A stretch of 64,000 bases of DNA. Source: Rosistilla ulvae (GTDB taxonomy: Bacteria; Planctomycetota; Planctomycetia; Pirellulales; Pirellulaceae). The stretch spans positions 4,093,798 to 4,157,797 of the forward strand of contig NZ_CP036261.1 in assembly GCF_007741475.1 (NCBI RefSeq). The letters are read 5' to 3'. Below are positions 49,945-63,700 of the stretch, one piece after another. Position numbers and translations under genes: made by a program. Numbering within the stretch: the stretch's first letter is position 1; each line of letters opens with the position of its first letter. Under the pieces are notes generated by a model, which had not been told where the DNA came from, did not search any database, and worked only from the letters and a program-made list of their open reading frames with translations.

Positions 49945-50619
49945 GTGATTATTTGGCTGTATCGTCAGATCCAAGGTGTTCGCAAAGCACTTGCGGGACG
50001 TGACAAACCGGAGGAACTCGCTTGGGCGATGGCCTTGGGCGTGCTGTTAGGTGTTGTCCCTAAGGGTAATCTTGCCGCGCTGATGCTCGTCTTTGTCGTG
50101 CTGATCCTGCGGGTCAACCACGCCATGGCAGCGGTCACCGCCGTGGCCGTCAGCTTTGCTGCTGTCCTGTTCGATCCGTTCACGCACCAATTGGGGCAAT
50201 GGGTCTTGGAACAGCCTGCGTTGCAAGGCTTCTACGCCTGGAGCTGGCAGCAACCGCTGATCCCATGGACTGATTTAAACAACACCGTCGTGATGGGCAG
50301 CCTGTTGTTTGGATTGATGACGTTGTTCCCAACCTACAGCTTGACGCTGCCGTTGTTCCGCGCGATCGCCAAGGAAAAACCAGGCACAGCGGAAGATGCC
50401 GACGTGCGACAGACGACTTCCGTATCGGATGTCGAAACCAACGTGGCCCCCGAACCGGTCGCGGCGACATCCGCGCCGCAGCGTTCGCCGCAACCGCAGG
50501 TCGATGTGATTCGAGTTCATCGTGAACACCAAACAGCTGCCAAACCGATCGCTTCCAGCGGTCCCAAGGCAACGTGTGGCGGAACTCCCCAGGTCAAGAA
50601 GCAGGAGAAGGCAGCATGA
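49945..50619 (+). CDS. TIGR03546-family membrane protein
   Basis: The GTG at 49945 has GGGAG nine bases upstream, giving 224 residues. The first 150 residues carry several hydrophobic helices with 'ELAWAMALGVLLGVVPKGNL', typical of the TIGR03546/DUF2062-related group. A Pro/Ala/Gln-rich soluble tail follows. Its TGA stop overlaps the ATG of the TIGR03545 gene by four bases. Genes of these two families occur as neighbours, and coupled translation supports one complex. Function unknown. Confidence 0.8.
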   Translation: MIIWLYRQIQGVRKALAGRDKPEELAWAMALGVLLGVVPKGNLAALMLVFVVLILRVNHAMAAVTAVAVSFAAVLFDPFTHQLGQWVLEQPALQGFYAWSWQQPLIPWTDLNNTVVMGSLLFGLMTLFPTYSLTLPLFRAIAKEKPGTAEDADVRQTTSVSDVETNVAPEPVAATSAPQRSPQPQVDVIRVHREHQTAAKPIASSGPKATCGGTPQVKKQEKAA

Positions 50620-52364
50620 TTCGCTGGCGATTTGTATTAACCCGAGTTCTCATTGTTGTCCTCGTGATCGTCTTGATCCGTCTAGCGCTCGGCCCAGCCG
50701 TCCGTTACGCGGCGCAGCAAACGTTGCAGAAAGCGACGGGCGGACGCGTCGACATCGCACAAACGCATATCGATCTGTGGCCACCACGGATCTATTTCGA
50801 AGAGGTCCATATCGCCGATCCGTCCAAAGAGATGGAAGACGCGGTTCAAGCCGAACTGATCGAGTTCCGGTTGCAGCCTTCGGCGCTCGTCCGACGCCAA
50901 TGGGTTGTCGAAAAGGCGAGAATCACCGGGTTGAAGGTGAACGAAGCGCGGACCACCGATGGGCGACTGGCGACTCGTGAAACTCCCGCAACCAATGGCG
51001 AGAGCTTTTCCGGCAAGCTGGCAGGCCTGCTGCAAGACTACGCGAAGGACCACGCCACCGCATTCGCTCGCGATCTGGAAACCGTGAAGACTTCCGAAGA
51101 CATTCGCATTCGCTGGAAGAATGAATACGAATCGCTGACCGCGCGAGCGAAACAGCTCGAAGGGGCGATCCGCGAAGTGCGCGACGGGATCCAAGGGATC
51201 GACAACCCATTGCGCGACCTGCCACAACTGCAACGTGCACTCCAACAAGCTGAAGCCATCCGACAGGACCTGCTGGTCGTCCGCAAGGCGATCGACGACT
51301 TGCCGCTGGCCGTGCAAGCCGATTTGGCGCGGATGGAACAGGCGCGTCAAGCCGACGTCGACCGCGTCGCCGAATACATCCCGCTGGCCGATGGGCAAGA
51401 AGCTGATTTCAGCCCCGAGATGTTTCGCCAGGTTGTTACAACACAACTGGATCGCGTTCGCTCGTTCCTCGACGGCAGCCGTTCGGTCGCCGACTGGACA
51501 GTCGTCAGCCCCGAGTCAGAGCGAACCCGCGGCAAGGACTTCAACTTTGTGCTCGGTAAACTGCCGCCATCTTGGCTGGTCCAACTGGCGGAAGTATCTG
51601 GCGAGATCCAAGTCGACGGCGTGAAATACGATCTACAAGGCGTGATGGAAAACATCACAACTCAGCCGCTGCTGGCCAACGGACCGCTGGTTGGGCGATT
51701 GAAGCTGGACGGACCTCAGATCGTTCGTGTCGACTTCCAACGTCACACCGAAGAGCAACGCTCGTGGGATGACGTGACGTTGCACTGGCCCCAATTGCCG
51801 ATCAACACGTTGGCGGTTGGCGATTCGAAGGAAACCTCGATTCGTTTGCAGCCAGGTGGCGTGGAGCTGTGGGTTCAGATGCTGGTCGACGGAGATCATG
51901 TCGAAGGCAAGCTAATCTCGCAGATGCGGAACACCCACGTTTCCGCGGAGATTCCGTCGAACAAATACAACGCAGCGTTGGTATCGTCGCTGTCCGACTC
52001 GCTTCAAGACGTTCGGGAAGTGAACGTAGAGGCCCGCTTTGGTGGTCGTTGGGACACGATGAAGATCAACGTCGCCAGCAACCTTTCGGGGCTCTTCTCC
52101 AACGCGGTAAAGAACGGTCTGGCAGCACAGACCGCCGCCACGAAAACCCAGTTGATGGGATTGGCCGACAACGCCTACCGCGACCAAGTTGGGGAACTGC
52201 AGGTCTGGCTGACGCAGCAACAGACGCAGGTTCGCAAGACCCTGACCGAAGTCGACGGAAGCGTCGAAGAGATCAGCCAAAAGCTAGTCAAACAACTCGG
52301 CGCACCCGACCTCTACCTCGGCCGACTGCAACGCGGCCTAGAAGTCCCAATGCCGAAGTTCTAG
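50616..52364 (+). CDS. TIGR03545-family protein
   Basis: The ATG at 50616 overlaps the upstream stop (ATGA) and gives 582 residues; an earlier in-frame start at 50574 lies inside the upstream gene. One N-terminal transmembrane helix (VLTRVLIVVLVIVLIRLAL) anchors a long body with an AsmA-like first part ('GRVDIAQTHIDLWPPRIYFE'), a coiled-coil middle (about residues 130-260) and a late beta-rich part. It is probably periplasmic. It pairs with the TIGR03546 membrane protein; envelope lipid transport is possible but unproven. Confidence 0.8.
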   Translation: MIRWRFVLTRVLIVVLVIVLIRLALGPAVRYAAQQTLQKATGGRVDIAQTHIDLWPPRIYFEEVHIADPSKEMEDAVQAELIEFRLQPSALVRRQWVVEKARITGLKVNEARTTDGRLATRETPATNGESFSGKLAGLLQDYAKDHATAFARDLETVKTSEDIRIRWKNEYESLTARAKQLEGAIREVRDGIQGIDNPLRDLPQLQRALQQAEAIRQDLLVVRKAIDDLPLAVQADLARMEQARQADVDRVAEYIPLADGQEADFSPEMFRQVVTTQLDRVRSFLDGSRSVADWTVVSPESERTRGKDFNFVLGKLPPSWLVQLAEVSGEIQVDGVKYDLQGVMENITTQPLLANGPLVGRLKLDGPQIVRVDFQRHTEEQRSWDDVTLHWPQLPINTLAVGDSKETSIRLQPGGVELWVQMLVDGDHVEGKLISQMRNTHVSAEIPSNKYNAALVSSLSDSLQDVREVNVEARFGGRWDTMKINVASNLSGLFSNAVKNGLAAQTAATKTQLMGLADNAYRDQVGELQVWLTQQQTQVRKTLTEVDGSVEEISQKLVKQLGAPDLYLGRLQRGLEVPMPKF

Positions 52365-52375
52365 CGTCCACGTGA

Positions 52376-53785
52376 TTAGTTGGACTGCTGCACTGCAGCA
52401 GCGATTTCACGGTGCTGCGATGCCAATTTAGATTGTCCAATGGCATCGTAGCATAACGCCAATGAGGCATGCAGCCGTTTTTCCTGGGGGAACTTTGGCA
52501 GTGCGTATTCCAATTCATCCAACGCCTCCTCCCAACGTTCCAACCCTGCCAGCAGCTGCCCGCGCGTTTCACGAAAGGCGTGCGAATCGGGGAATTCCTG
52601 GAGCAATTCATCGATCAATTCCAACCCTCTTTGAAGGTCGCCATCTTCTTTGAGTAACTCGTAATAGGCGAGGTTGTTGGCTGCGATGCTTAAGCTCTTA
52701 TCAAGCTTGTAGGCGCGTTTCATATGGAAAACGGCATCGTCGACTAAGTTTAGCTGCCACCGACGCGAGCCCAGTACAAAATGGACAATCGCATTGTGGC
52801 GGCCACTAGTGAGCGATTGCTCCAGCATCTTTTCGATCCTTCCGCTGGGGTCGACGATACCAACATCCGCCAACTCCTTGATCACATCCGTACTCTCAGG
52901 ATCTGCGGCAAGTGCTTTCTGAAGATAGGACAGCAGTTCATCCAAACTAACTCGCTCGCTTTTTCGTTGGCGAAATCGAGCAAGATAGGCTTTGGCAAGC
53001 GTCTTGTTCCAATCCCCATCCGGATCAACATCGGCTCCTTGCAGAAGTATTTGTTCGGCATTGTCGAAGACATTGAGCCAAATTTGCACCTCAACGTATC
53101 GATAGCGTGCATCGCGATCCAACGGATGACTGGCAACCTGCTGCTTCAGGAAATCGCTCGCCAGTTCGGCTGCCTTGTTCGTTTCAGGCAGCAATTTGTG
53201 CTTCTGGCAAGCTTTGAATAGATCATAGTAGTACGCTGGGTTTTGAAGTGAAGCGTCTCTTAACGATTCCAATGCTCGTTCGGTCGAACCGGTTCCCCAA
53301 AAGCAAGTTGCCAGCAGATAGTTAACCTCGCTGTCCTTGTAGAGGGTCTTTTTCGCATTGGAAAGATGAGAGATTGCCGTTGTGATCGTTTCGAGGTCGG
53401 CCTCAGGATTGACCATCAATTGTTTGGCTTGCCAAACATGCGCGGGGCCAAATCCTTGTTTCTCCGGCGATGCAATCCCCGACATGATCCGCAAACCACG
53501 CTCCTGATCGCCCGCTGCGACGAGAGACAGCCCGAGATGGAAGCGGTCTTCAAGGCGAGGGTTGATGCGAATCAATCGGTCAAAACAGACGACCGCCAAG
53601 TCGTGCTGCTGTGCATCGTAGGCGCGCGTTGCGGCGTGACGATAGATATCCTCCAGCTTCGCTTCACGCGACCATACGTACAATAAAAAGGGGGTGAGCA
53701 CCAAACATCCCAACACGGCCGGAAGCCCCATCAGAAGATCGGAAAAATAGCGTTCACCGCGTTCAAAATCACCGTCGTACATCAT
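52376..53785 (-). CDS. Membrane-anchored TPR protein of exosortase module 1
   Basis: The 469-residue protein has one transmembrane helix at about residues 19-35 ('AVLGCLVLTPFLLYVW') and then TPR-like helical repeats to the end. Its start ATG at 53785 overlaps the exosortase stop by four bases. The last 110 residues ('AFRETRGQLLAGLERWEEAL') resemble the same region of the other TPR protein here ('VIETRGQIHAALQQWEQAL'). Position and coupling suggest that it forms part of the sorting or secretion machinery. Its stop is 11 bp from that of the convergent TIGR03545 gene. Confidence 0.75.
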   Translation of the reverse strand: MMYDGDFERGERYFSDLLMGLPAVLGCLVLTPFLLYVWSREAKLEDIYRHAATRAYDAQQHDLAVVCFDRLIRINPRLEDRFHLGLSLVAAGDQERGLRIMSGIASPEKQGFGPAHVWQAKQLMVNPEADLETITTAISHLSNAKKTLYKDSEVNYLLATCFWGTGSTERALESLRDASLQNPAYYYDLFKACQKHKLLPETNKAAELASDFLKQQVASHPLDRDARYRYVEVQIWLNVFDNAEQILLQGADVDPDGDWNKTLAKAYLARFRQRKSERVSLDELLSYLQKALAADPESTDVIKELADVGIVDPSGRIEKMLEQSLTSGRHNAIVHFVLGSRRWQLNLVDDAVFHMKRAYKLDKSLSIAANNLAYYELLKEDGDLQRGLELIDELLQEFPDSHAFRETRGQLLAGLERWEEALDELEYALPKFPQEKRLHASLALCYDAIGQSKLASQHREIAAAVQQSN

Positions 53786-55494
53786 TGCGAGTCTGTTCCT
53801 ACACTATCACCTAGAGGAGCCACATGCTGCCGGAACCGGTGGAACAAATCCGCCAGATCACCGCGTTCGACATCGGTCAGCGGCTCAGGTGACTGACAGA
53901 AGACTTGGATCTGAAAGCTAAGGCTATCGCTTTTTGCAACGGTTGCATCGCCGCCGCCAAAGAGAGATTTAACGAGCCGAAGCAGGTCATTCAATCGCCC
54001 CGCATGCCGTTGCATTTTTTTCACTTCAGGGGCAAGAAACCCGCGGAATTCGTTGTCGAACAGACCGGTTGTGACAAGCCCGTACTGCTCTGGTTCCTTT
54101 GCGACATCAAATGCCATGAAATCACCACCGCGGTCGAAGCCCGCATCGCGATACGTTGAAAATTTGATGTTGGTGTCTTCCCACCCTTGGCCTCGATAGC
54201 AATCGGTCAGGTAATGCCAACCATTGGTATAAGGGCCATCGATGGACGCCTGCGCTCGAAGCGCTCCCTTGGACATAATCCAAAGCTGCGAGACTTCGCC
54301 ATTCACATTTCCACTTTCTCTCACGACATGCTGGTACTCGACATTACGCCAACCGCCAAGCGTCGGGGGAACAAGATCTCCGCAGGGCTGCGCGAGGAGT
54401 TCGATATCCGCACGGGACGCAGATGCCATCGATCCACCTAACGCAATCGACGTGTACTGTACGAGTGCAAGCGTTCCAAACAACCCAAGCACGACGCGCC
54501 GCTCGCGCGCTCCCAAGAAACTGGAGATCGGACGTCGTTTTCGCTTCCGCTTCGGCTTGGTATCGCCAGCCTTTGCCTCATGTTCCTTATGCCAGTAAGG
54601 AGGAATCGACGCCGGCCACAGGAAGCATAAAAAACGCTCGGTGCTGAAAATTGCCAATAGAGTCAATGCAAAGAAAATCACTCCCAACATCTGATGATAG
54701 ACGCCCACATCCACCGGCAGTGCAAACTCCTCCTTCAAGACGACAACGGCAACAATTCGCGAGATATTGGCGACCAAGACCCAGAAGAAAGCAGCGACCA
54801 GAACCAACAGGGACCTCACGACGCCAGCCTTGTTCAAGATCAGATACAGACCTGTACAGAACAATGCTGAAAACAGCGATTGGACCCCACTGCAAGCCTC
54901 TTCGACCTGATACGACTGGGAGGGCAAGCGGAGCACAACACCATCCACCATGTGTCGATAGCCGAACAAATCCAAGATACCACTGGACAGATGGGTGGCA
55001 ATTCCCTGCAGAAAAACGATCAGCTCGCGGTCGTAGCTGAGCGGAATGGGGATCACCAACCACAACAATAACCAGGCCGGCAAAGCCTTCTTCGCGACCT
55101 GCCCCCCACCAAGAGAATAGATCAGTGCCGCCAGCAAAAACATACTCGACACCCCGGCAAGCCAGGGAGAAACCAGCAGGGTGGCAACCAATAGGCTCAG
55201 GAACGCAATCGCGATCAAAGAGCGACGCAGCCACTTAGAAGTTGGCTTATAGCTTGGATCGGAAAATGCCGCAACGATCAAAGCAAGGCCCGCCGCGATC
55301 CCCAGCGGAAAGAAGCTGTAGTGGTCGCGATACCAAAGCCACCTCGCCAATCGAAGCGATAGTGGAATATAAGCCGCAGCCAAAACTAACAGCAGCCCCA
55401 GACCAAAACGGTCGATCGAGAGCCAATTGGGAAGGAAGCTATAAAACGAACGCACTCCCCGAGAAGGGAGTGCGTGTGGAGTTTCTGTTGTCAC
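53782..55494 (-). CDS. Exosortase with fused EpsI-like C-terminal domain, module 1
   Basis: The product has 570 residues. Eight or more helices in the first 300 residues hold the exosortase triad: C201 in 'VEEACSGVQSL', R246 in 'VANISRIVAVV' and H267 in 'GVYHQMLGV'. After a basic linker (RKRKRR) and another helix, residues about 350-560 form a soluble domain with 'GWHYLTDCYRGQGWE', like the EpsI/DUF3485 protein that accompanies other exosortases. It should cleave and transfer PEP-CTERM proteins at the inner membrane. The PEP-CTERM gene lies 51 bp upstream. Confidence 0.88.
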   Translation of the reverse strand: MTTETPHALPSRGVRSFYSFLPNWLSIDRFGLGLLLVLAAAYIPLSLRLARWLWYRDHYSFFPLGIAAGLALIVAAFSDPSYKPTSKWLRRSLIAIAFLSLLVATLLVSPWLAGVSSMFLLAALIYSLGGGQVAKKALPAWLLLWLVIPIPLSYDRELIVFLQGIATHLSSGILDLFGYRHMVDGVVLRLPSQSYQVEEACSGVQSLFSALFCTGLYLILNKAGVVRSLLVLVAAFFWVLVANISRIVAVVVLKEEFALPVDVGVYHQMLGVIFFALTLLAIFSTERFLCFLWPASIPPYWHKEHEAKAGDTKPKRKRKRRPISSFLGARERRVVLGLFGTLALVQYTSIALGGSMASASRADIELLAQPCGDLVPPTLGGWRNVEYQHVVRESGNVNGEVSQLWIMSKGALRAQASIDGPYTNGWHYLTDCYRGQGWEDTNIKFSTYRDAGFDRGGDFMAFDVAKEPEQYGLVTTGLFDNEFRGFLAPEVKKMQRHAGRLNDLLRLVKSLFGGGDATVAKSDSLSFQIQVFCQSPEPLTDVERGDLADLFHRFRQHVAPLGDSVGTDSQ

Positions 55495-55545
55495 GTAGAT
55501 GACTCGGAAATGCTTTTGAAATCGACTGTCACTTACCAGGCTACG

Positions 55546-56292
55546 CTAAGCCTTTGGTGCAGCTTTCGATTTTCGTCGGCGAAGGTATCCAAGTCCAAAA
55601 GCGGATGCACCAAAACTGGAAAGTAGCAAGCTGACAGGTTCGGGATTAACGATTGTGCTGGATTGCACGCTACCAATCTGACCTGCCGTCAAGCTAACCG
55701 TAAAGGTGTTGGCGACGCGAAGCCGAGTACCAAAATCTCCAAGTCCTCCAACCGTCTCTTGTGTAGCAGCAAATGGCGACAACACCGATGGCGGAGCAAG
55801 CACAAGAGAATGGTTGTACGTGCTGCCACTACTGAAATCGAAAGGATTCAGTGGACCTGGATCGGGGAACGACGTCGAGAAATAGCCGGAACTATCGGTT
55901 AAAGTCCCGTCTCCCGTTGTGGAGATAGAATGCCGAAAGAAATCGATCGGGGCTCCCGCAACGGTGAACAGTTCGGATGTCGAAACTCGAATCGGTGTTG
56001 CTGGAACGTTGCCGCCGGTGAAGTCGTAATCTGCCTGAACATTCAATTGTCCCGATCCGGCATCGGCACCAAGGGTGTTTGCGTTGACAACAAAGCTTGC
56101 GCCACTTTGCCATCCAGCCAATGAAGTGAGATCGACTGTGATTGCACCAACATTTACGTTAGTGTCGTCGGCACTTCCATCAACAATGGTCGTGTTGAGG
56201 CCATTACCTTGAAATTGCAGGGTTAAAACGGCTTCCGCCTGCTGTTGCGACAAGACGCAAACCAGCGCTGCGATGATTATCGAAAGTCTCAT
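55546..56292 (-). CDS. PEP-CTERM sorting-domain protein
   Basis: The ATG at 56292 (GAGAGG upstream) gives 248 residues with a signal peptide ending near 'QQAEA'. The middle is a Gly/Ser/Thr-rich beta protein typical of extracellular PEP-CTERM cargo. The C-terminus is a complete tripartite sorting signal: 'NPEPVSLLLSS', a hydrophobic helix (about 15 residues) and RRRKSK. It lies between two exosortase-TPR modules on the same strand and is their obvious candidate substrate. Which of the two exosortases acts on it cannot be told. Confidence 0.88.
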   Translation of the reverse strand: MRLSIIIAALVCVLSQQQAEAVLTLQFQGNGLNTTIVDGSADDTNVNVGAITVDLTSLAGWQSGASFVVNANTLGADAGSGQLNVQADYDFTGGNVPATPIRVSTSELFTVAGAPIDFFRHSISTTGDGTLTDSSGYFSTSFPDPGPLNPFDFSSGSTYNHSLVLAPPSVLSPFAATQETVGGLGDFGTRLRVANTFTVSLTAGQIGSVQSSTIVNPEPVSLLLSSFGASAFGLGYLRRRKSKAAPKA

Positions 56293-56421
56293 CGAGTTGT
56301 ACCTCTCGTGGGGAGTATTCAGTTTTCGTAAATCGTAACACAAGGCATTTCCGTTGCAACTGGCATCTCGGTTATTTTCCCCCTTCTCTTCGCAAACTGC
56401 CTAAACCACGGCCCCTAGCTT

Positions 56422-57921
56422 CTAGTTTGTCAACGATTTGACAATCCGTGCGTGCTCTTCCGACAAGTCCTTGTTCCCCAAAGCCTCATAGACTTTTGCA
56501 AGGGTTTGATGCAATTCAACCGCCCCCTTCAGAACGGGAAGCGCCTGCTCCAAGTCTGTGAGAGCCTGCTCCCACTGCTGCAGTGCCGCATGGATTTGCC
56601 CCCGAGTTTCGATAACGTATGGGTACATTGGATTGTTCGCTTCAACAAGTTCGACAGCGCGACTGCTGAAACCAAGTGCTTTTTCGTATTCTGGCGGTTC
56701 CTTATGGGACATGAACCAAGCAATGTTGTTTAACAGCGCAGGCATCTGTGGATTTTTGCGATAGGCTTGCCTGAAGTGCTGCATCGCCTTGGCCGAATCT
56801 CCACCTTGGGTTGCGTGAGTGCCCAAAATGAAATGGGCGGTCGCCGTGGCATGCCCCGACGCAAGCATCTTGTTTACCAGTTGTTGCGCTTGCTCTCCTG
56901 CATCCCCTTCGAACCGCGAGAACTCAGCAAGTCGCGCAATCGCCGCTTGATTGCCTGGTTCGAGCGTCAAAACTTGCCCAAGCAGCCGAATGATCTGCAC
57001 TTGTGATTCCAGTGAATCACTCTCCAGCGCAAGAGAATCGACGCGCTGGACATATAGATTTGCCAGTGTCGAAGCCAACGTCTTCGACTGCGGTTGTAAG
57101 CCGGCTTCGGTGGCTAGTTGCATTCCTTCGACAAGCAGCTTTTCAGCCTCGGGGAACTCGCTATTTCTAAAATGGATCAACGCCAACTGAGTTCGAGCTG
57201 TGGCATCGCTGGGCTCCTCTGCAAGGAGCTCCTCGAGATAAGCTTTCGCCAGCTTATAATGCTTCTTTGCTTGAGACTTTTCCGAGACCTGATCGTAAAG
57301 ATCAGCGAGAGTAAGGTGCATTTCGGGACGTTGATCAACAATCTTTTCCAGATGCTCAATCGCCTCGCTCTTCATACCCGCTTTGTGGTAGGCAAATCCA
57401 TAAAGCAAGTGTGCGTCGGCAAGATTAGGCTCCTCAGCCACCGCTCCGTCGAGGTGGTGTATCAGCGGTGAGAGGTTGGCTGGCGTCCATTCCTTAATAC
57501 TGGCGACCAAACGATGCGCCTTCCACAGGTGCGCTCGGCCATAGCCGAATTCGTCCTCCGGTGCTAAGAGGTCCATGGACTTTAATGCGGCGTCGCTGCG
57601 TCCCAATGCTTCGTCGACCACAGCACGGTTAAATTGCACACTGGAATCGACGGGGGAATTGCCATCAATCTTCTGCAAAAACAACGCCGCGGTTTGATAG
57701 TCATGATCGATGACGGCTTCATTGACAGCCTTTTTATAGCGTTGTGCAGTCCGACCTTGCAGCAAGGGGCTAAGCATAGCGGGCAGCAAAACAGCGGCGA
57801 TCACGATTGCCGCGGGGAGTGCGGGCCATAAATGGCTTGTCTTACGCGTCTCCAGCCAATGGATTGGCCGAGCAAATAGGATCAAGAGCCAACCTTTACG
57901 ACGTGTTTTTCTCGGCCTCAT
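56422..57921 (-). CDS. Membrane-anchored TPR protein of exosortase module 2
   Basis: The 499-residue protein opens with a basic stretch and one transmembrane helix at about residues 34-53 ('LPAAIVIAAVLLPAML'). TPR repeats follow: 'DYQTAALFLQKIDGNSP', 'DAHLLYGFAYHKAGMKSEA', 'AMQHFRQAYRKNPQMPALL'. The ATG at 57921 overlaps the exosortase stop at 57918 by four bases, exactly as in module 1. It is homologous in layout and C-terminus to the module 1 TPR protein, so the two modules arose by duplication. Confidence 0.78.
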   Translation of the reverse strand: MRPRKTRRKGWLLILFARPIHWLETRKTSHLWPALPAAIVIAAVLLPAMLSPLLQGRTAQRYKKAVNEAVIDHDYQTAALFLQKIDGNSPVDSSVQFNRAVVDEALGRSDAALKSMDLLAPEDEFGYGRAHLWKAHRLVASIKEWTPANLSPLIHHLDGAVAEEPNLADAHLLYGFAYHKAGMKSEAIEHLEKIVDQRPEMHLTLADLYDQVSEKSQAKKHYKLAKAYLEELLAEEPSDATARTQLALIHFRNSEFPEAEKLLVEGMQLATEAGLQPQSKTLASTLANLYVQRVDSLALESDSLESQVQIIRLLGQVLTLEPGNQAAIARLAEFSRFEGDAGEQAQQLVNKMLASGHATATAHFILGTHATQGGDSAKAMQHFRQAYRKNPQMPALLNNIAWFMSHKEPPEYEKALGFSSRAVELVEANNPMYPYVIETRGQIHAALQQWEQALTDLEQALPVLKGAVELHQTLAKVYEALGNKDLSEEHARIVKSLTN

Positions 57922-59600
57922 TGGGTCACCTCGCGAATCAGCTCGACAAGCGTTATCGCAGTCTGATGGTGGAAGTCCCTCATCGCGGTTGCTTGCTGCT
58001 CGTCAAGTGGATCTTTAGATTGGTACAACAATTGAACTTGGTAACTGGACGGGTCACGACGCAACGAAGCCGTTTGCTTGAGAAACGCCGACTGAAATCG
58101 CGAGAGCCAGTACTGTAGCGTCCCCGAGCTATTGCCTGCCGGAACGAGCGGCTGCCCAGACTGGAGGAACTCGCTGAACCAAAGATGACCAACTTCACCG
58201 TCCGGTGCTGCGACGATTGCCTGAACACTCTGAATCTTATCGTTATCTTCCGTCGCAAGCACTTCGCGAGCAGAAACGTCATACCCCAGAGCGGCATAAC
58301 AACCGGTTAACTCATGCCAACCGAGAAACGGGAAATCGATCGCAACCGTAGCGGTTCCTCTCGGCGACCGATAAACCCAACTGGCAGTGTTGCGTCCCAT
58401 AAAATTCGTCAATGCTCTCGATTCGGCGTCGAACTCAACACGCTCCCACTCCCCTATCGTTTCGGGCAGCGAGTTTTCATTCAATGCAGTGATCATCTGT
58501 GGATTATCAGGATCGATCACGGTAACAGATTCCGCTTGCAACGCGAGTGTCGCTAGTTGCAAAACCAGCAGCAGGACGAAGCCACCACCGATGACATAAA
58601 TCCAGGTCGAGCCGTTTTGCACGTGAAGACGAAGCGACCGATCTTCCGTCGATTCCTCTTCAGTTGCGGTCGCGCTGAGATCGGTCGTCGGATAGTCCTC
58701 GAAATCGATATCGACCACTTCGTCGGATTCCAGGAAGAACAGCAGCAAGCGATCGCTACTGAATAGCAACGCAAACGCCAACGCGAACAAGACCAGTCCA
58801 AAGACTTGGTGAGCCGTTCCTGTCGAAATATCGATCCCAAAGTGCTGCATCGCGATCACGACACCGGCGACGCGGCCAATATTGATCGTACAGGCCCAGA
58901 AGGCGGCACAGCCCACCAGAGCAACGCAGTGATACCATGGCCGGCGATAGACCGTCAAAAAAATGGCCGCGGCGGCAACCAGCGTAAAAAGTGATTGAAT
59001 CCCACTGCAGGCTTCCTCTACCAGAAATTTGTCATTGGCAGTCTGGATGATGTGCCCCGCCAAAACATGGTTGACTCCGGTGAAATCGAGCAACCGGCTC
59101 GCCAACGTCGACGTTAAACCCTGCAGCCAAAAGATCAGATCGATGTCGAGATTCAGCGGCAACTTGATCAACAAAAAGAACAGGCACCACAACGGCAGAA
59201 AGCGGGAAAGCCAGCCCTGCTGATAGAGTTCCAACAAGATCGCTCCTGCGGTAACCGCCAAAGCCAACGCAGCAAGGTTTGGCGACCATGCAACATAGGC
59301 AATTGCCAACAGCAACAGCCCGGCCAGCAACAGCGACTTCTGCCAAATCGGACGGATTATTCGAGGGATCGGAGCAGATACCCACAAATGCGAAATCAGC
59401 ACCGGGATTGCGATCAACAATAGCGGGAAAAACTGATAGTGCTCGAAGGCCCAGAGCTGCTTGAAATGCAATACAAGCAACGGCGCAAAACTGGCCAAGA
59501 CAACAAAATAAAACGCTGCCCGCCGCTTCAGATCCTGCCAGGCCACAGAGCCTTCATGATTTGTATCAACGTCAAACGATTCTGCCGCCAAATCAGACAT
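57918..59600 (-). CDS. Exosortase with fused EpsI-like C-terminal domain, module 2
   Basis: The product has 560 residues. The triad is C198 in 'VEEACSGIQSL', R243 in 'TINIGRVAGVV' and H264 in 'GTAHQVFGLV'. A linker rich in acidic residues ('VVDIDFED') leads to an extra helix and a soluble domain with 'GWHELTGCYAALGYD', the counterpart of the module 1 motif. It is diverged from the module 1 enzyme in both halves. A carbamoyltransferase gene lies 92 bp upstream on the same strand. Confidence 0.88.
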   Translation of the reverse strand: MSDLAAESFDVDTNHEGSVAWQDLKRRAAFYFVVLASFAPLLVLHFKQLWAFEHYQFFPLLLIAIPVLISHLWVSAPIPRIIRPIWQKSLLLAGLLLLAIAYVAWSPNLAALALAVTAGAILLELYQQGWLSRFLPLWCLFFLLIKLPLNLDIDLIFWLQGLTSTLASRLLDFTGVNHVLAGHIIQTANDKFLVEEACSGIQSLFTLVAAAAIFLTVYRRPWYHCVALVGCAAFWACTINIGRVAGVVIAMQHFGIDISTGTAHQVFGLVLFALAFALLFSSDRLLLFFLESDEVVDIDFEDYPTTDLSATATEEESTEDRSLRLHVQNGSTWIYVIGGGFVLLLVLQLATLALQAESVTVIDPDNPQMITALNENSLPETIGEWERVEFDAESRALTNFMGRNTASWVYRSPRGTATVAIDFPFLGWHELTGCYAALGYDVSAREVLATEDNDKIQSVQAIVAAPDGEVGHLWFSEFLQSGQPLVPAGNSSGTLQYWLSRFQSAFLKQTASLRRDPSSYQVQLLYQSKDPLDEQQATAMRDFHHQTAITLVELIREVTQ

Positions 59601-59692: not shown

Positions 59693-61468
59693 CTACGTGG
59701 ATGCAACGCGTTTACGATATTGGGATGGAAAGGCAGGGTTACTGCGATCAACGATCAAATTCCCCAAGACCAACACATCCATGTCGGTTCGCAAAAAGCA
59801 ACTCAACGCCTCCGCTGGGGTTCGCACGACTGGCTCATTCTCGTTTAACGATGTGTTAAGCACAATTGGAACCCCCGTCCGCTTGTAAAACGCCGATATC
59901 AACGAATGATATCTAGGGTTTGTGCGGGTTGAAACACTTTGCAGACGACCGCTTCCGTCGACATGCGTCACCGCGGGAACCAATGCCTGCTTGTCGGAAC
60001 GAATTGGCAAAACCTTCTCCATATAAGGTGCATGTTCCTCGATCGCAAACCACTCCCCTACGTGTTCTTCGAGGATGCTCGGTGCAAATGGACGAAACTT
60101 CTCGCGAAACTTGATGCGCAGATTGATGATGTCACGCATGTCGGTGCGTCGCGGATCGGCGATCAACGATCGATTGCCAAGCGCCCGTGCGCCAAACTCC
60201 ATGCGTCCCTGGAACCAACCAACAACCTTCCCATCGATCATCAAGTCGACAGTTTGTTCCATCAGCGCGTCGTCGTCGTAGCGCTGAAATGGCAAATCAA
60301 GCTCTTCGATCGCCTGCAGGCACTCGTCGTTGCCAAACTGACACCCCCAATACGCGTGATCTTGAACAAAGGAGCGTCCTTTTTCCAACACCCGATTCCA
60401 AACATAAAAAGCAGCGCCGAACGAGGTGCCATTGTCCGCCGCCCCCGCAGGAACATAAACCTCCTCGAAAGGAGTCTTCTCAGTAATTTTTCCATTGGCG
60501 ACCGAATTCATCGCCACTCCTCCCGTCATGCACAGCTTGGTCTGCCCTGTCTGATGGTGAAGTCGCTCCAGCATGTGCAAGATGACCTCTTCGGTAACCA
60601 CCTGCAAACTCTTGGCGATATTCTCATGCTTCTTCGTTACCGGGGCATCGGACGATCGAATCGGTCCTAATTCTTGAACTAAACGATCGGTCAGGAACGG
60701 TTCGACGACCGGTGCCCCATCATTCCAATTCATCCGGATCCCCAACCGATGATGGTTGAAGTAGTCCAAATTTAGCTCGAACGTATTTCCGGTAAGCTTG
60801 ATCATTCGACGGATCGCATCGACATATTCGGGCTCGCCATAGGGAGCTAAGCCCATCACCTTGTATTCGTCCCCATAATACGGGAATCCAAGGTACATCG
60901 TGATCGCACTGTACAGAAACCCCAACGAGTGCGGGTAGTAGACGCGGTCCAATTCCGACCAAGTGTTCCCCTTGCCAAGGGCGGTCAAGGTGCTTGTGAA
61001 ATCCCCCATCCCATCGACACTCAACACAGCGGCTTCGTCGAAGGGTGAGATCAGAAAGCCCGCAGCGACATGCGTCTGATGATGTTCGATGCGATGAAAA
61101 CGAGCTTGAATTGCACGCTTGTCGACTCCAACAGCCCTGGCAAATTGATCTTCCAATGCCAAGGTCTTGCCTTGCCGGCGCAGTCGATCCAGGACCGCCC
61201 GTCCATTGGGGCGATGCTTGATCACGTAGCCGAGCCGTTTAGCCAGGTTCGCCTTGGGATTAAACGAGATCGCCACGTGGTCGAGCTGTTCGGAGGTGAT
61301 TCCTGCCTGATCCAAGCAATAGCGGATTGACTGAGCGGGAAAACCGGCCCAATGCTTGATCCGATTGAAACGCTCTTCCTCCACTGCGGCGACCAGTTGA
61401 CCGTCGACGACGATTGCCGCCGACGCATCGCCGTGATATGCGTTAATTCCTAAAACCGAGATCGTCAT
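59693..61468 (-). CDS. NodU/CmcH-family carbamoyltransferase
   Basis: This 591-residue enzyme has the family's two domains: an N-terminal ASKHA-like part with 'GINAYHGDASAAIVVDG' and 'VAAVEEERFNRIKHW', and a C-terminal carbamoyltransferase core with 'GRMEFGARALGNRSLIADPR' and 'INLRIKFREKFRPFAPS'. The family transfers the carbamoyl group from carbamoyl phosphate to hydroxyls of sugars or antibiotics. Its position among glycosyltransferases suggests carbamoylation of an exported polysaccharide; the acceptor is unknown. It starts 30 bp from the upstream glycosyltransferase stop. Confidence 0.9.
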   Translation of the reverse strand: MTISVLGINAYHGDASAAIVVDGQLVAAVEEERFNRIKHWAGFPAQSIRYCLDQAGITSEQLDHVAISFNPKANLAKRLGYVIKHRPNGRAVLDRLRRQGKTLALEDQFARAVGVDKRAIQARFHRIEHHQTHVAAGFLISPFDEAAVLSVDGMGDFTSTLTALGKGNTWSELDRVYYPHSLGFLYSAITMYLGFPYYGDEYKVMGLAPYGEPEYVDAIRRMIKLTGNTFELNLDYFNHHRLGIRMNWNDGAPVVEPFLTDRLVQELGPIRSSDAPVTKKHENIAKSLQVVTEEVILHMLERLHHQTGQTKLCMTGGVAMNSVANGKITEKTPFEEVYVPAGAADNGTSFGAAFYVWNRVLEKGRSFVQDHAYWGCQFGNDECLQAIEELDLPFQRYDDDALMEQTVDLMIDGKVVGWFQGRMEFGARALGNRSLIADPRRTDMRDIINLRIKFREKFRPFAPSILEEHVGEWFAIEEHAPYMEKVLPIRSDKQALVPAVTHVDGSGRLQSVSTRTNPRYHSLISAFYKRTGVPIVLNTSLNENEPVVRTPAEALSCFLRTDMDVLVLGNLIVDRSNPAFPSQYRKRVAST

Positions 61469-61498: not shown

Positions 61499-62626
61499 CT
61501 AACGCAACGCTTGTTCATAACAAGCCAACATTTTTGCCGCAACGCTCGACCAGGCAAACTGTGTGGAAACGAGCAACCTACCACGCTGCCCCATCTGATT
61601 GCGCTGATCATCGGCGAGTGCTGTCGCCTGCCGAATCGCATCAGCAATTCCGGCGCACGTGCCTTCGACCCACCAACCACATCGTTCCCTCTGCACGATC
61701 TGCCAGGGAGTACCCTGCGTGGCCACCACGGGCGTCCCACTGGCCAAAGCCTCGGCGATCGCTAATCCAAAATTTTCGCTTCGCGAAGCATTTACCAGAA
61801 ACCCGGCGGCAGCAAGCATTGACCACTTTTGCTGCTCGTCGACTTCACCAATCAAATGAACTCGCTCGCTTAAACCAGCGACGGCAATCAGGTGCTTTAC
61901 TTCTTGAACATACTTCCATTCCCCGGCCCCAGCGATTACAAGCGGCCAATCCAACGGAGCAGCCTGGTGCCACGCTTCGACCAAAACATCAAGCCCTTTC
62001 ACCGGGTCGATCCGCCCCAAAGCAATTGCAAACGGCTTGCCTCGACCGACAGGAAAAGCCCGAGGCAAAGGCAAGGCACTATCCGGTGGCAAGTCGCACC
62101 CGTTTGGAACGATTTCGATCGCCTGTGTCAGCCCCCGACGCATACAATCGTCGCGTTCTGCCTCGCTGGTCGCATGGATCACGGCAGCAAATCTTAGATC
62201 CCGCTGCTGATAAAGGTTCCAAGCGACTCGCTTCCGAAGCGGCTTTACGTTCAGGCATGCTTCCGACAACATGCCTCTGGGCGACACAACGTACGGCACC
62301 CTAATCGCCCTTGCTCGCCGAGCCGCACCGTGTACCGTCGGGCTCCACAAACCGTGGAGATGCACCACCGAAACCGCTTCCTCCGCATGAATCCTCACCA
62401 GCGCATCCGCGAGGCCGGAAGACCTCTTGGCGGACGGGATTGCATCAAAGCGAACGCCGCCAGCATCATCAACATCGACGGTTACCGCTTGGCCACGGTC
62501 TTGGAATAACACCGAAACACGGATCGCTGGCTCCAGGTGCGCCATGCTCAGTGCGAGCGCAGGAATCGACCGGCTCGGCCCACCGCTGGAACAATCCAGA
62601 TCGCGAACGATGTGAACGACATGCAT
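61499..62626 (-). CDS. GT4-family glycosyltransferase
   Basis: The 375-residue protein is a GT-B-fold glycosyltransferase. The N-terminal 'VRDLDCSSGGPSRSIPALA' is the typical acceptor-domain start, and the nucleotide-sugar site has the family's E-x7-E in 'SENFGLAIAEALASGTPVVA'. A preceding 'ALGRIDPVKGLDVLVEAW' is also characteristic. Donor and acceptor sugars are unknown. It lies between the carbamoyltransferase and a second GT4 gene, separated by 30 and 6 bp, so the three are probably one operon. Confidence 0.88.
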   Translation of the reverse strand: MHVVHIVRDLDCSSGGPSRSIPALALSMAHLEPAIRVSVLFQDRGQAVTVDVDDAGGVRFDAIPSAKRSSGLADALVRIHAEEAVSVVHLHGLWSPTVHGAARRARAIRVPYVVSPRGMLSEACLNVKPLRKRVAWNLYQQRDLRFAAVIHATSEAERDDCMRRGLTQAIEIVPNGCDLPPDSALPLPRAFPVGRGKPFAIALGRIDPVKGLDVLVEAWHQAAPLDWPLVIAGAGEWKYVQEVKHLIAVAGLSERVHLIGEVDEQQKWSMLAAAGFLVNASRSENFGLAIAEALASGTPVVATQGTPWQIVQRERCGWWVEGTCAGIADAIRQATALADDQRNQMGQRGRLLVSTQFAWSSVAAKMLACYEQALR

Positions 62627-62632
62627 CGCTAT

Positions 62633-63700
62633 CTAGAAGACCCTTGCCAATGCGTTCGTAAATCGCATTGCGAATCGGTCGGGAGAAAACGACTCACTAC
62701 GGACGATCGCTCTCCGTGATATCGAATCGAATCTCTCGGAGCCCATTGTCAACAACTCTTCGAGCCGATCTGCCAGCTGCTCGGGCTGAGCGAGGTCGAC
62801 ACACGCCCCCCCATTGCCGATGACCTCTGCAGCAGCATCCTCGGTCGAACCAATCGGAATACAGCCTTGGCTCATCGCTTCTAGGTAAACGATCCCAAAC
62901 CCTTCGCCATGACTGGGCATACAGAAAACTCGCGATTGGCGATAGAGTTCAAGCAACTTCTCGTTTGTCAGAAAACCATGAATTACAACATGTTCCTGGC
63001 AACCCGACTGAAGCACCTGCTTCCGAAAGCTGTCCAAGTGCTTTCCAGCACCGACAACATGCCACTGTAAATCGGGAATCTTCTCGATCAACTGCGGCAA
63101 CACCGCCAGCGTCTCCGCATGCCCTTTCGGTCGATCCGGTTCCATGCGCCCAACGGTTAAGATCCAAGGTCGACGTTGCGACAATCGATCGATGTCACAA
63201 CTTGGCATCTCAAACGTCAATGGAACAACGATCTGTTCGACGTTCAACGAGTGAAATGATTCAAAGCGTTGCCTGGTAAATTCCGAGTTGAAGATCAGCA
63301 GTTCCGCTTGTTCCATCGCCGCAAGTTTTCGCTGTGGCAAACGTTTCCATGCCTCAACGCCATGAACCCATAACGCATGCGGGGACCGTAAACGCTTGGG
63401 CAGGATGGTTTGACATTGCGCAATATCGACATGGTCATAGACGATTGCGTGAGGGCGATCGAGTGCCTGCCGCAACATCGCCACTGCGAACCGCTTGCGA
63501 TTCCCAGCGTAACCAATAGTCGATCGGAGCGGCTGACCAACGGCACGTTTCTCGTCGAGCAAAGAAATCGTCCGCCGTAGGCTCCAGTCTGAACTATCTT
63601 GGATCGCTTGGGCACAGGCTCTTGCAACTCCGGCAACGCCACCGAATTGTCTCCCTAAACCAACGGTTGCTAGCCAGATCGACAAATTAGACCGTCGCAT
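62633..63700 (-). CDS. GT4-family glycosyltransferase
   Basis: The 355-residue protein has the GT-B/GT4 pattern: 'LGRQFGGVAGVARACAQAI' near the start, 'ILTVGRMEPDRPKGHAETLA' in the donor domain and the E-x7-E motif in 'GEGFGIVYLEAMSQGCIPIG'. The start ATG at 63700 overlaps the stop of the upstream polymerase-like gene (63687) by 14 bases. It is six bases from the next glycosyltransferase gene. It likely assembles one linkage of an exported polysaccharide. Confidence 0.88.
   Translation of the reverse strand: MRRSNLSIWLATVGLGRQFGGVAGVARACAQAIQDSSDWSLRRTISLLDEKRAVGQPLRSTIGYAGNRKRFAVAMLRQALDRPHAIVYDHVDIAQCQTILPKRLRSPHALWVHGVEAWKRLPQRKLAAMEQAELLIFNSEFTRQRFESFHSLNVEQIVVPLTFEMPSCDIDRLSQRRPWILTVGRMEPDRPKGHAETLAVLPQLIEKIPDLQWHVVGAGKHLDSFRKQVLQSGCQEHVVIHGFLTNEKLLELYRQSRVFCMPSHGEGFGIVYLEAMSQGCIPIGSTEDAAAEVIGNGGACVDLAQPEQLADRLEELLTMGSERFDSISRRAIVRSESFSPDRFAMRFTNALARVF

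Follow-up and report, generated by a model that had tools for sequence, protein, structure and literature searches.

The window analysed here is a 64,000-nt stretch of Rosistilla ulvae DNA (NZ_CP036261.1, positions 4,093,798-4,157,797), and feature coordinates count from its start. It carries two genes for exosortases, which are membrane enzymes thought to sort surface proteins, two genes for tetratricopeptide repeat (TPR) proteins and one gene for a protein with a PEP-CTERM-type tail. An earlier note on this DNA had described the five genes as a duplicated exosortase-TPR unit around a single PEP-CTERM protein. The layout was confirmed: all five genes were found on the minus strand at the places given there, an ATGA overlap was present at both exosortase/TPR borders, and the Cys-Arg-His triad was kept in both exosortases (Table 1). 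The duplication was not confirmed, and the two exosortase-TPR units are probably of old, separate origin. Judged by its gene content, the locus is the end of a polysaccharide-type gene cluster, because a carbamoyltransferase and glycosyltransferases are encoded upstream and, past the window end (L073), further glycosyltransferases, acyltransferases, methyltransferases and a polysaccharide-polymerase match below the cut-off were found.

Table 1. Positions of the genes and features discussed in the text (window coordinates, except for the fusion proteins, which are given by record)
Feature	Position	Strand	Remarks
Exosortase 1, XrtU class, 560 aa	57918..59600	-	triad C198, R243, H264
TPR partner 1, 499 aa	56422..57921	-	N-terminal membrane segment ~residues 36-54, then TPR superhelix; ATGA overlap with exosortase 1
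PEP-CTERM-type tail protein, 248 aa from ATG 56292 (ORF reaches TTG 56343)	55546..56292	-	opens the putative exosortase 2 cassette
Terminator-like hairpin	55450..55475	-	11 pairs then TCGTTTTA; between PEP-CTERM gene and exosortase 2
Exosortase 2, XrtU class, 570 aa	53782..55494	-	triad C201, R246, H267; C-terminal domain ~366-563
TPR partner 2, 469 aa	52376..53785	-	N-terminal membrane segment; ATGA overlap with exosortase 2
Exosortase-TPR fusion proteins	L276:231-3392, L277:6971-10084, L286:946-4485, L287:850-4401, L288:1154-4672, L289:1468-4869, L290:1595-5029		intact triad
Carbamoyltransferase	59693-61468	-	upstream polysaccharide-type gene
Two GT4 glycosyltransferases	61499-62626, 62633-63700	-	upstream polysaccharide-type genes
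TIGR03545 gene	50574..52364	+	converging; conserved flank marking the same locus in two other species of the genus

Both exosortases are assigned by profile matches to the XrtU class. They scored 124 bits (exosortase 1) and 127.1 bits (exosortase 2) with PF09721 (cut-off 25.7), and 122 and 99.1 bits with the XrtU C-terminal model NF033780 (cut-off 40). The strict exosortase model TIGR02602 (8TM_EpsH) was not reached, with 90 and 101.9 bits at a cut-off of 105.55, and the two proteins are filed under XrtU rather than there. A Foldseek comparison of the C-terminal domain of XrtU yielded nothing at E ≤ 0.001 (lowest E 0.09), and the VIA-align scores for SciW (9.1), Mog1 (8.8) and PsbP (8.5) were barely above those of models with no clear match, so that they provide a lead only. 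Searching PDB sequences with an exosortase profile returned only a chain of NADH-quinone oxidoreductase, which is unrelated and had an E of 0.73.

Both partner proteins matched TPR families in Pfam. The exosortase and TPR trees had 13 of 23 splits in common, whereas 1000 label shuffles gave 0.2 on average and never more than 3, and the distances in the two trees were correlated (Spearman 0.58, with 0 of 2000 permutations as high). With a TPR profile that includes the window's own two TPR proteins, 3, 3, 2, 2 and 3 matches at E ≤ 1e-20 were found in five genomes with XrtU, thus in all five, and none at this threshold in nine genomes without an XrtU match, with only part of the first-look candidates scored in several genomes. 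In the five XrtU genomes, all strong matches adjoined XrtU and one weak match (G234) lay inside an exosortase-TPR fusion. Where more than 2.5 kb of room remained downstream of an intact XrtU, the partner gene came next in 66 of 94 cases; 57 of these belonged to the TPR family and 9 to a weaker family, T2, which is TPR-like by length and position only and gave weak TPR matches in two of five proteins tested. Seven exosortase-TPR fusions of 1037-1183 amino acids were found, each with a core that keeps the triad and then a TPR domain matching the XrtU-linked TPR profile (E 3e-20 to 1e-113), and Pfam confirmed both halves in all five of those tested. In L276 and L277 the TPR part begins at the core end and replaces the XrtU C-terminal domain. 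The fusions L286-L290, from two genera, are probably one family, so the seven are not independent.

The shared splits, the nine genomes without XrtU and the fusions make it well supported at the sequence level that the TPR protein is a dedicated XrtU partner. The earlier note had called each TPR protein an obligate partner of its exosortase, and the partnership is thus borne out. In a survey of 50 genomes (assemblies of 1-100 contigs; not every first-look candidate scored), 11 of 53 intact XrtU had no adjacent TPR gene. The dependence runs one way, with TPR tied to XrtU and not every XrtU tied to an adjacent TPR gene. Among complete XrtU-linked partners, an N-terminal hydrophobic segment was present in 109 of 115 and a lipobox-like site in none of the 115. 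The model of TPR 1 showed a superhelix (predicted local distance difference test 93.5), and the 9 basic and 1 acidic residues before its membrane segment fit an outward TPR domain.

For the PEP-CTERM gene, the ATG at 56292 is a likelier start than the TTG at 56343 and gives the same length as called in the sister species. By eye the tail is clear, with PEP, a hydrophobic stretch and RRRK. The Pfam PEP-CTERM model PF07589 (cut-off 20.7 bits) did not match the protein, which was also unlisted in the genome scan at E ≤ 10. With a tail profile that contains it, the window tail scored 44.5 bits; this profile was built from 12 tails, five of them from this genome, and those five match by construction. 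A genome-wide survey, as the earlier note had proposed, gave six PEP-CTERM tails that scored clearly higher than everything else; the one that was not part of the profile belongs to a 320-amino-acid open reading frame (ORF). The PEP-CTERM protein is therefore single only inside the window, and neither in the genome nor in the cluster, where a second gene on the same strand (L073:4753-5631, 292 amino acids) lies ~4 kb past the window end, at ~8.4 kb from exosortase 1 on its upstream side. The genome, 7.48 Mb in one contig, holds four exosortases, three of them XrtU, namely the window pair and one at 0.93 Mb. The third XrtU has a TPR gene 5 bases downstream and is located near a PF00953 sugar-phosphate transferase family gene, an O-antigen ligase family gene and a chain-length-type gene. 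The fourth exosortase (L012:750-9263) adjoins a tyrosine autokinase-type gene and a 1585-amino-acid TPR protein with similarity to PrsT below the cut-off.

We then compared gene order over 208 XrtU rows, which come from all the loci gathered and include broken and cut genes, some of them shorter copies of full genes. A PEP-CTERM gene was located just upstream of XrtU in 32 rows and downstream in 10, with both in one row, and six of the ten downstream genes lay simultaneously upstream of a further XrtU. A strict terminator-like hairpin was present at 16 of 27 junctions leading from a PEP-CTERM gene into XrtU, compared to 4 of 118 leading from another gene into XrtU (Fisher 6e-11, with related sequences that are not independent). 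At other junctions it was found in 1 of 95 (XrtU to TPR) and 1 of 22 (any gene to PEP-CTERM). A plain scan of the window region gave 15 terminator-like sites vs 9.2 expected, among which the hairpin at 55450-55475 had the most pairs; it covers the first exosortase 2 codons if the start is GTG 55494, and G001, the sister species, has it too, with a single change in the loop. In L254:2899-10169, PEP-XrtU-TPR occurs twice in tandem, with 44, 41 and 45% identity, and there is a third PEP-XrtU start. The repeat unit can thus be three genes, PEP-XrtU-TPR, and the window order reads as XrtU-TPR followed by PEP-XrtU-TPR. Because of the PEP-first order and the hairpin at such junctions, the window PEP-CTERM gene would belong to exosortase 2. 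The earlier proposal that two enzymes share one local cargo was rejected as the simplest reading, given the cassette order, the hairpin and the second PEP-CTERM gene in the cluster.

To place the two units, we turned to identities and trees. The identity was 27% between exosortases 1 and 2 and 26% between TPR 1 and TPR 2. In a tree of 36 exosortases, exosortase 1 grouped with the third XrtU of its own genus (support 100/100) and exosortase 2 with other genera (G003, G010 and G025; 96/91), and a tree of 26 linked TPR proteins gave the same groups (95/93 and 99/98). When the two units were forced as sisters, the approximately unbiased (AU) test rejected the topology with p 7e-9 for the exosortases and 9e-4 for the TPR proteins. 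These are the trees that the earlier note had called for; the window units are sisters in neither, and a recent or local duplication of the two-gene unit is refuted under the tree models used. In the sister species G001 the order at the locus is unchanged. G002 carries a single PEP-XrtU-TPR set at the same locus, identified by its TIGR03545 neighbour, and because the exosortase of this set is close to neither window copy (30% and 29% identity), the locus seems, from this comparison, to exchange modules. By BLAST, the nearest kin of exosortase 1 outside its own genus is a G025 copy with Arg changed to Cys, and the other XrtU of that cluster falls in the exosortase 2 clade. The grouping of exosortase 1 with mostly broken copies, including that of G025, had moderate support only (83).

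The comparison with G001 also pointed to a recent event. In bins of 200 bases, identity to G001 was 96-100% over window positions 57,401-59,600, against 54-85% in the adjoining 1.6 kb on the left side and 85-93% in the 2 kb that follow on the right. The synonymous divergence (dS) between the window species and G001 was 0.02 for exosortase 1 and 0.57-1.54 for the four genes after it. Exosortase 1 and the N-terminal part of TPR 1 were probably exchanged recently between the two species, as judged from this identity profile. Elsewhere in the cluster, the glycosyltransferase gene at 61600-62800 was 57-73% identical to G001 in 200-base bins, next to bins of up to 86-97%, as in a mosaic polysaccharide locus.

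The triad is not kept in all XrtU. Of 137 full-length XrtU from 83 genomes (147 entries before incomplete or unreadable ones were left out), 110 keep the triad and 27 are broken, and a MAFFT alignment and a model built from intact sequences agreed on the intact or broken call for 140 of 140 sequences. Among 23 clusters with at least two XrtU within 15 kb, 16 combined one intact with at least one broken copy, 5 were all intact (the window, G001, G142, G159 and G178) and 2 had a partner cut by a contig end. This cluster count is inflated, since loci were partly picked for close XrtU and known pairs were added; L074 was left out. Among named records, pairs with both members intact also occur in L252, L254 and L264. 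An intact and a broken copy are paired in the Verrucomicrobiales locus L215. L175 (G065) has three XrtU in a span of ~11 kb, of which two are broken and one is intact; the third gene is on the opposite strand. The 50-genome survey is the fairer count. Its 67 full-length XrtU included broken copies in 9 of 21 clustered vs 5 of 46 lone genes (Fisher p 0.007, with related genes treated as independent), and all ten genomes with a broken copy also hold an intact one.

The broken copies are long open frames. Of ten tested, nine had a match at E ≤ 0.01 to an exosortase or XrtU model, in some cases with a score below its cut-off. On a 138-row tree that includes the non-XrtU exosortase L012, the triad state changed at least 10 times by parsimony, with long branches that make the placement unsure. 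Of four comparisons between broken copies, two had a finite dS, and the ratio of nonsynonymous to synonymous divergence (dN/dS) was 0.10 and 0.16 in these. For the intact neighbours of related pairs it was 0.08-0.12; dS values were close to saturation. Thirteen of 23 broken copies keep a TPR gene. That one member of such pairs in related bacteria has often lost its triad is a hint that it has a role other than catalysis.

Gene order, overlaps, co-inheritance, fusions, hairpin enrichment and triad states are direct observations, and the reading that we favour and hold, on balance, to be probable would build on them. The tail of the polysaccharide cluster would carry two independent old XrtU units: unit A, with exosortase 1 and TPR 1, and cassette B, with the PEP-CTERM gene, the hairpin, exosortase 2 and TPR 2. 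The substrate gene leads cassette B, and the hairpin would lower read-through so that the substrate is made in excess over the enzyme, as the anatomy suggests. By analogy with the general exosortase model, the PEP-CTERM protein would be exported and stay anchored in the inner membrane through its C-terminal helix, and exosortase 2 would cut it near the PEP motif via Cys201, His267 and Arg246. The cut protein would then be set free or attached to an acceptor, for instance the polysaccharide that this cluster may make. The TPR protein may be a superhelix anchored in the membrane and presumably located in the periplasm, where it would dock on its own XrtU and hold either the substrate or a partner in the cell envelope. 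Unit A may serve other PEP-CTERM proteins, most simply the 292-amino-acid one of the same cluster outside the window. In a planctomycete, PEP-CTERM genes have been tied to N-acyl amino acid genes (PMC7293339).

Several observations weigh against this reading. Besides the intact XrtU that have no adjacent TPR gene, the residues before the membrane segment of TPR 2 (2 basic, 5 acidic) misfit an outward TPR domain. No nearby PEP-CTERM gene was found in 167 of the 208 XrtU rows, so the local order says little on general specificity, and 11 of the 27 junctions from PEP-CTERM gene to XrtU have no strict hairpin. The link between exosortase 1 and the 292-amino-acid protein consists in their common cluster, and there is no hairpin 3' of that gene. 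Six PEP-CTERM proteins and four exosortases leave the matching of substrates in this genome ambiguous.

Other explanations of the same data were weighed. Had the two-gene unit been duplicated in tandem at this locus, on either side of a single substrate gene, and its copies then diverged, this would explain why gene types, order and ATGA overlaps are identical in both units, and the L254 tandem is a real case of such an array. We find such a duplication hardly credible for the window, where the identities are 27% and 26%, sisterhood was rejected by both AU tests and each unit has nearer relatives at other loci. TPR proteins are frequent in polysaccharide gene clusters, and the two XrtU loci of this genome that have a detailed annotation both sit in clusters of that type, so the TPR protein might belong to the polysaccharide assembly machinery and be a mere neighbour of the exosortase. 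This is made less likely by the exosortase-TPR fusions; the TPR tree also tracks the XrtU tree, and the profile has no strong match in the nine XrtU-less genomes (not all first-look candidates scored). We regard it as very improbable.

A further explanation takes the two exosortases as one hetero-oligomeric machine, in which one member catalyses and the other XrtU-TPR unit serves as receptor, scaffold or regulator with no need for catalysis of its own; the window would keep both sites and other genera would have lost one. The recurrence of XrtU side by side speaks for it, as do the mixed clusters, the higher broken share among clustered genes, and broken copies that are full-length, seem to have arisen repeatedly, look constrained and often keep their TPR gene, together with the G025 pair related to both window exosortases. 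The window itself holds no pair of an active and a pseudo-exosortase, since both of its triads are intact. Clustering may only reflect polysaccharide loci that collect exosortases, 5 of the 14 broken copies in the 50-genome survey are lone, the sampling favoured pairs, the Fisher test takes related genes as independent, and constraint is somewhat weaker on broken than on intact copies. On this evidence a hetero-oligomer in the window is rather unlikely. Somewhat less doubtful, and still put forward as a tentative idea, is the general form: XrtU may act as paired XrtU-TPR units that need catalysis from one member, the second being a non-enzymatic receptor or scaffold whose active site decayed in many lineages while the protein and often its TPR gene were kept. 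The window pair would then be the still fully catalytic version.

These results bear on how exosortase substrates are found and on the roles of neighbouring proteins. The data define a cassette of substrate gene, hairpin, XrtU and TPR, and the TPR partner, which in some genomes is fused to the enzyme, is directly testable. Broken XrtU beside intact ones in many genera suggest that members of the exosortase family may do something besides cutting, and annotation by family name would label many broken copies as exosortases. If the paired-unit reading is true, pseudo-exosortases would be a new class of sorting factor. In the open-licence literature, no paper was found that joins 'exosortase' with 'XrtU' or with 'pseudoenzyme'.

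Compared to known systems, the window exosortases resemble Exosortase U (NF033780) in that both beat its cut-off, keep Cys-Arg-His, lie in a polysaccharide-type cluster and have a PEP-CTERM-type neighbour. The window differs in that a single cluster holds two XrtU units that are only deeply related, that each XrtU gene overlaps a TPR gene by ATGA, and that a hairpin lies 3' of the PEP-CTERM gene. For the TPR protein, the earlier note had known of no described role. TPR partners are not wholly undescribed, since PrsT (TIGR02917), the TPR protein of the XrtA/PEP-CTERM system, was described bioinformatically in 2006 and is likewise a TPR-repeat protein genetically tied to a PEP-CTERM/exosortase system (Haft 2006, PMC1569441). 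The window TPR proteins scored 84.9 and 42.2 bits with the PrsT model, far under its cut-off of 312.2, and the lipoprotein signal described for PrsT contrasts with the lack of lipobox-like sites among the XrtU-linked partners. LbcA (PDB 7rqf) was one of many TPR folds similar to the TPR 1 model, with a Foldseek E of 5e-8 to its superhelix. As the TPR partner of the periplasmic protease CtpA, LbcA works like a substrate-presenting partner; it is not known to be tied to exosortases, and the similarity is a general TPR one. Pseudo-proteases such as iRhoms have another fold and occur in other organisms, and the likeness concerns the broken XrtU of other genera and not the window pair. Like those broken XrtU, which appear constrained, iRhoms are catalytically dead paralogues of membrane enzymes that have been kept by selection.

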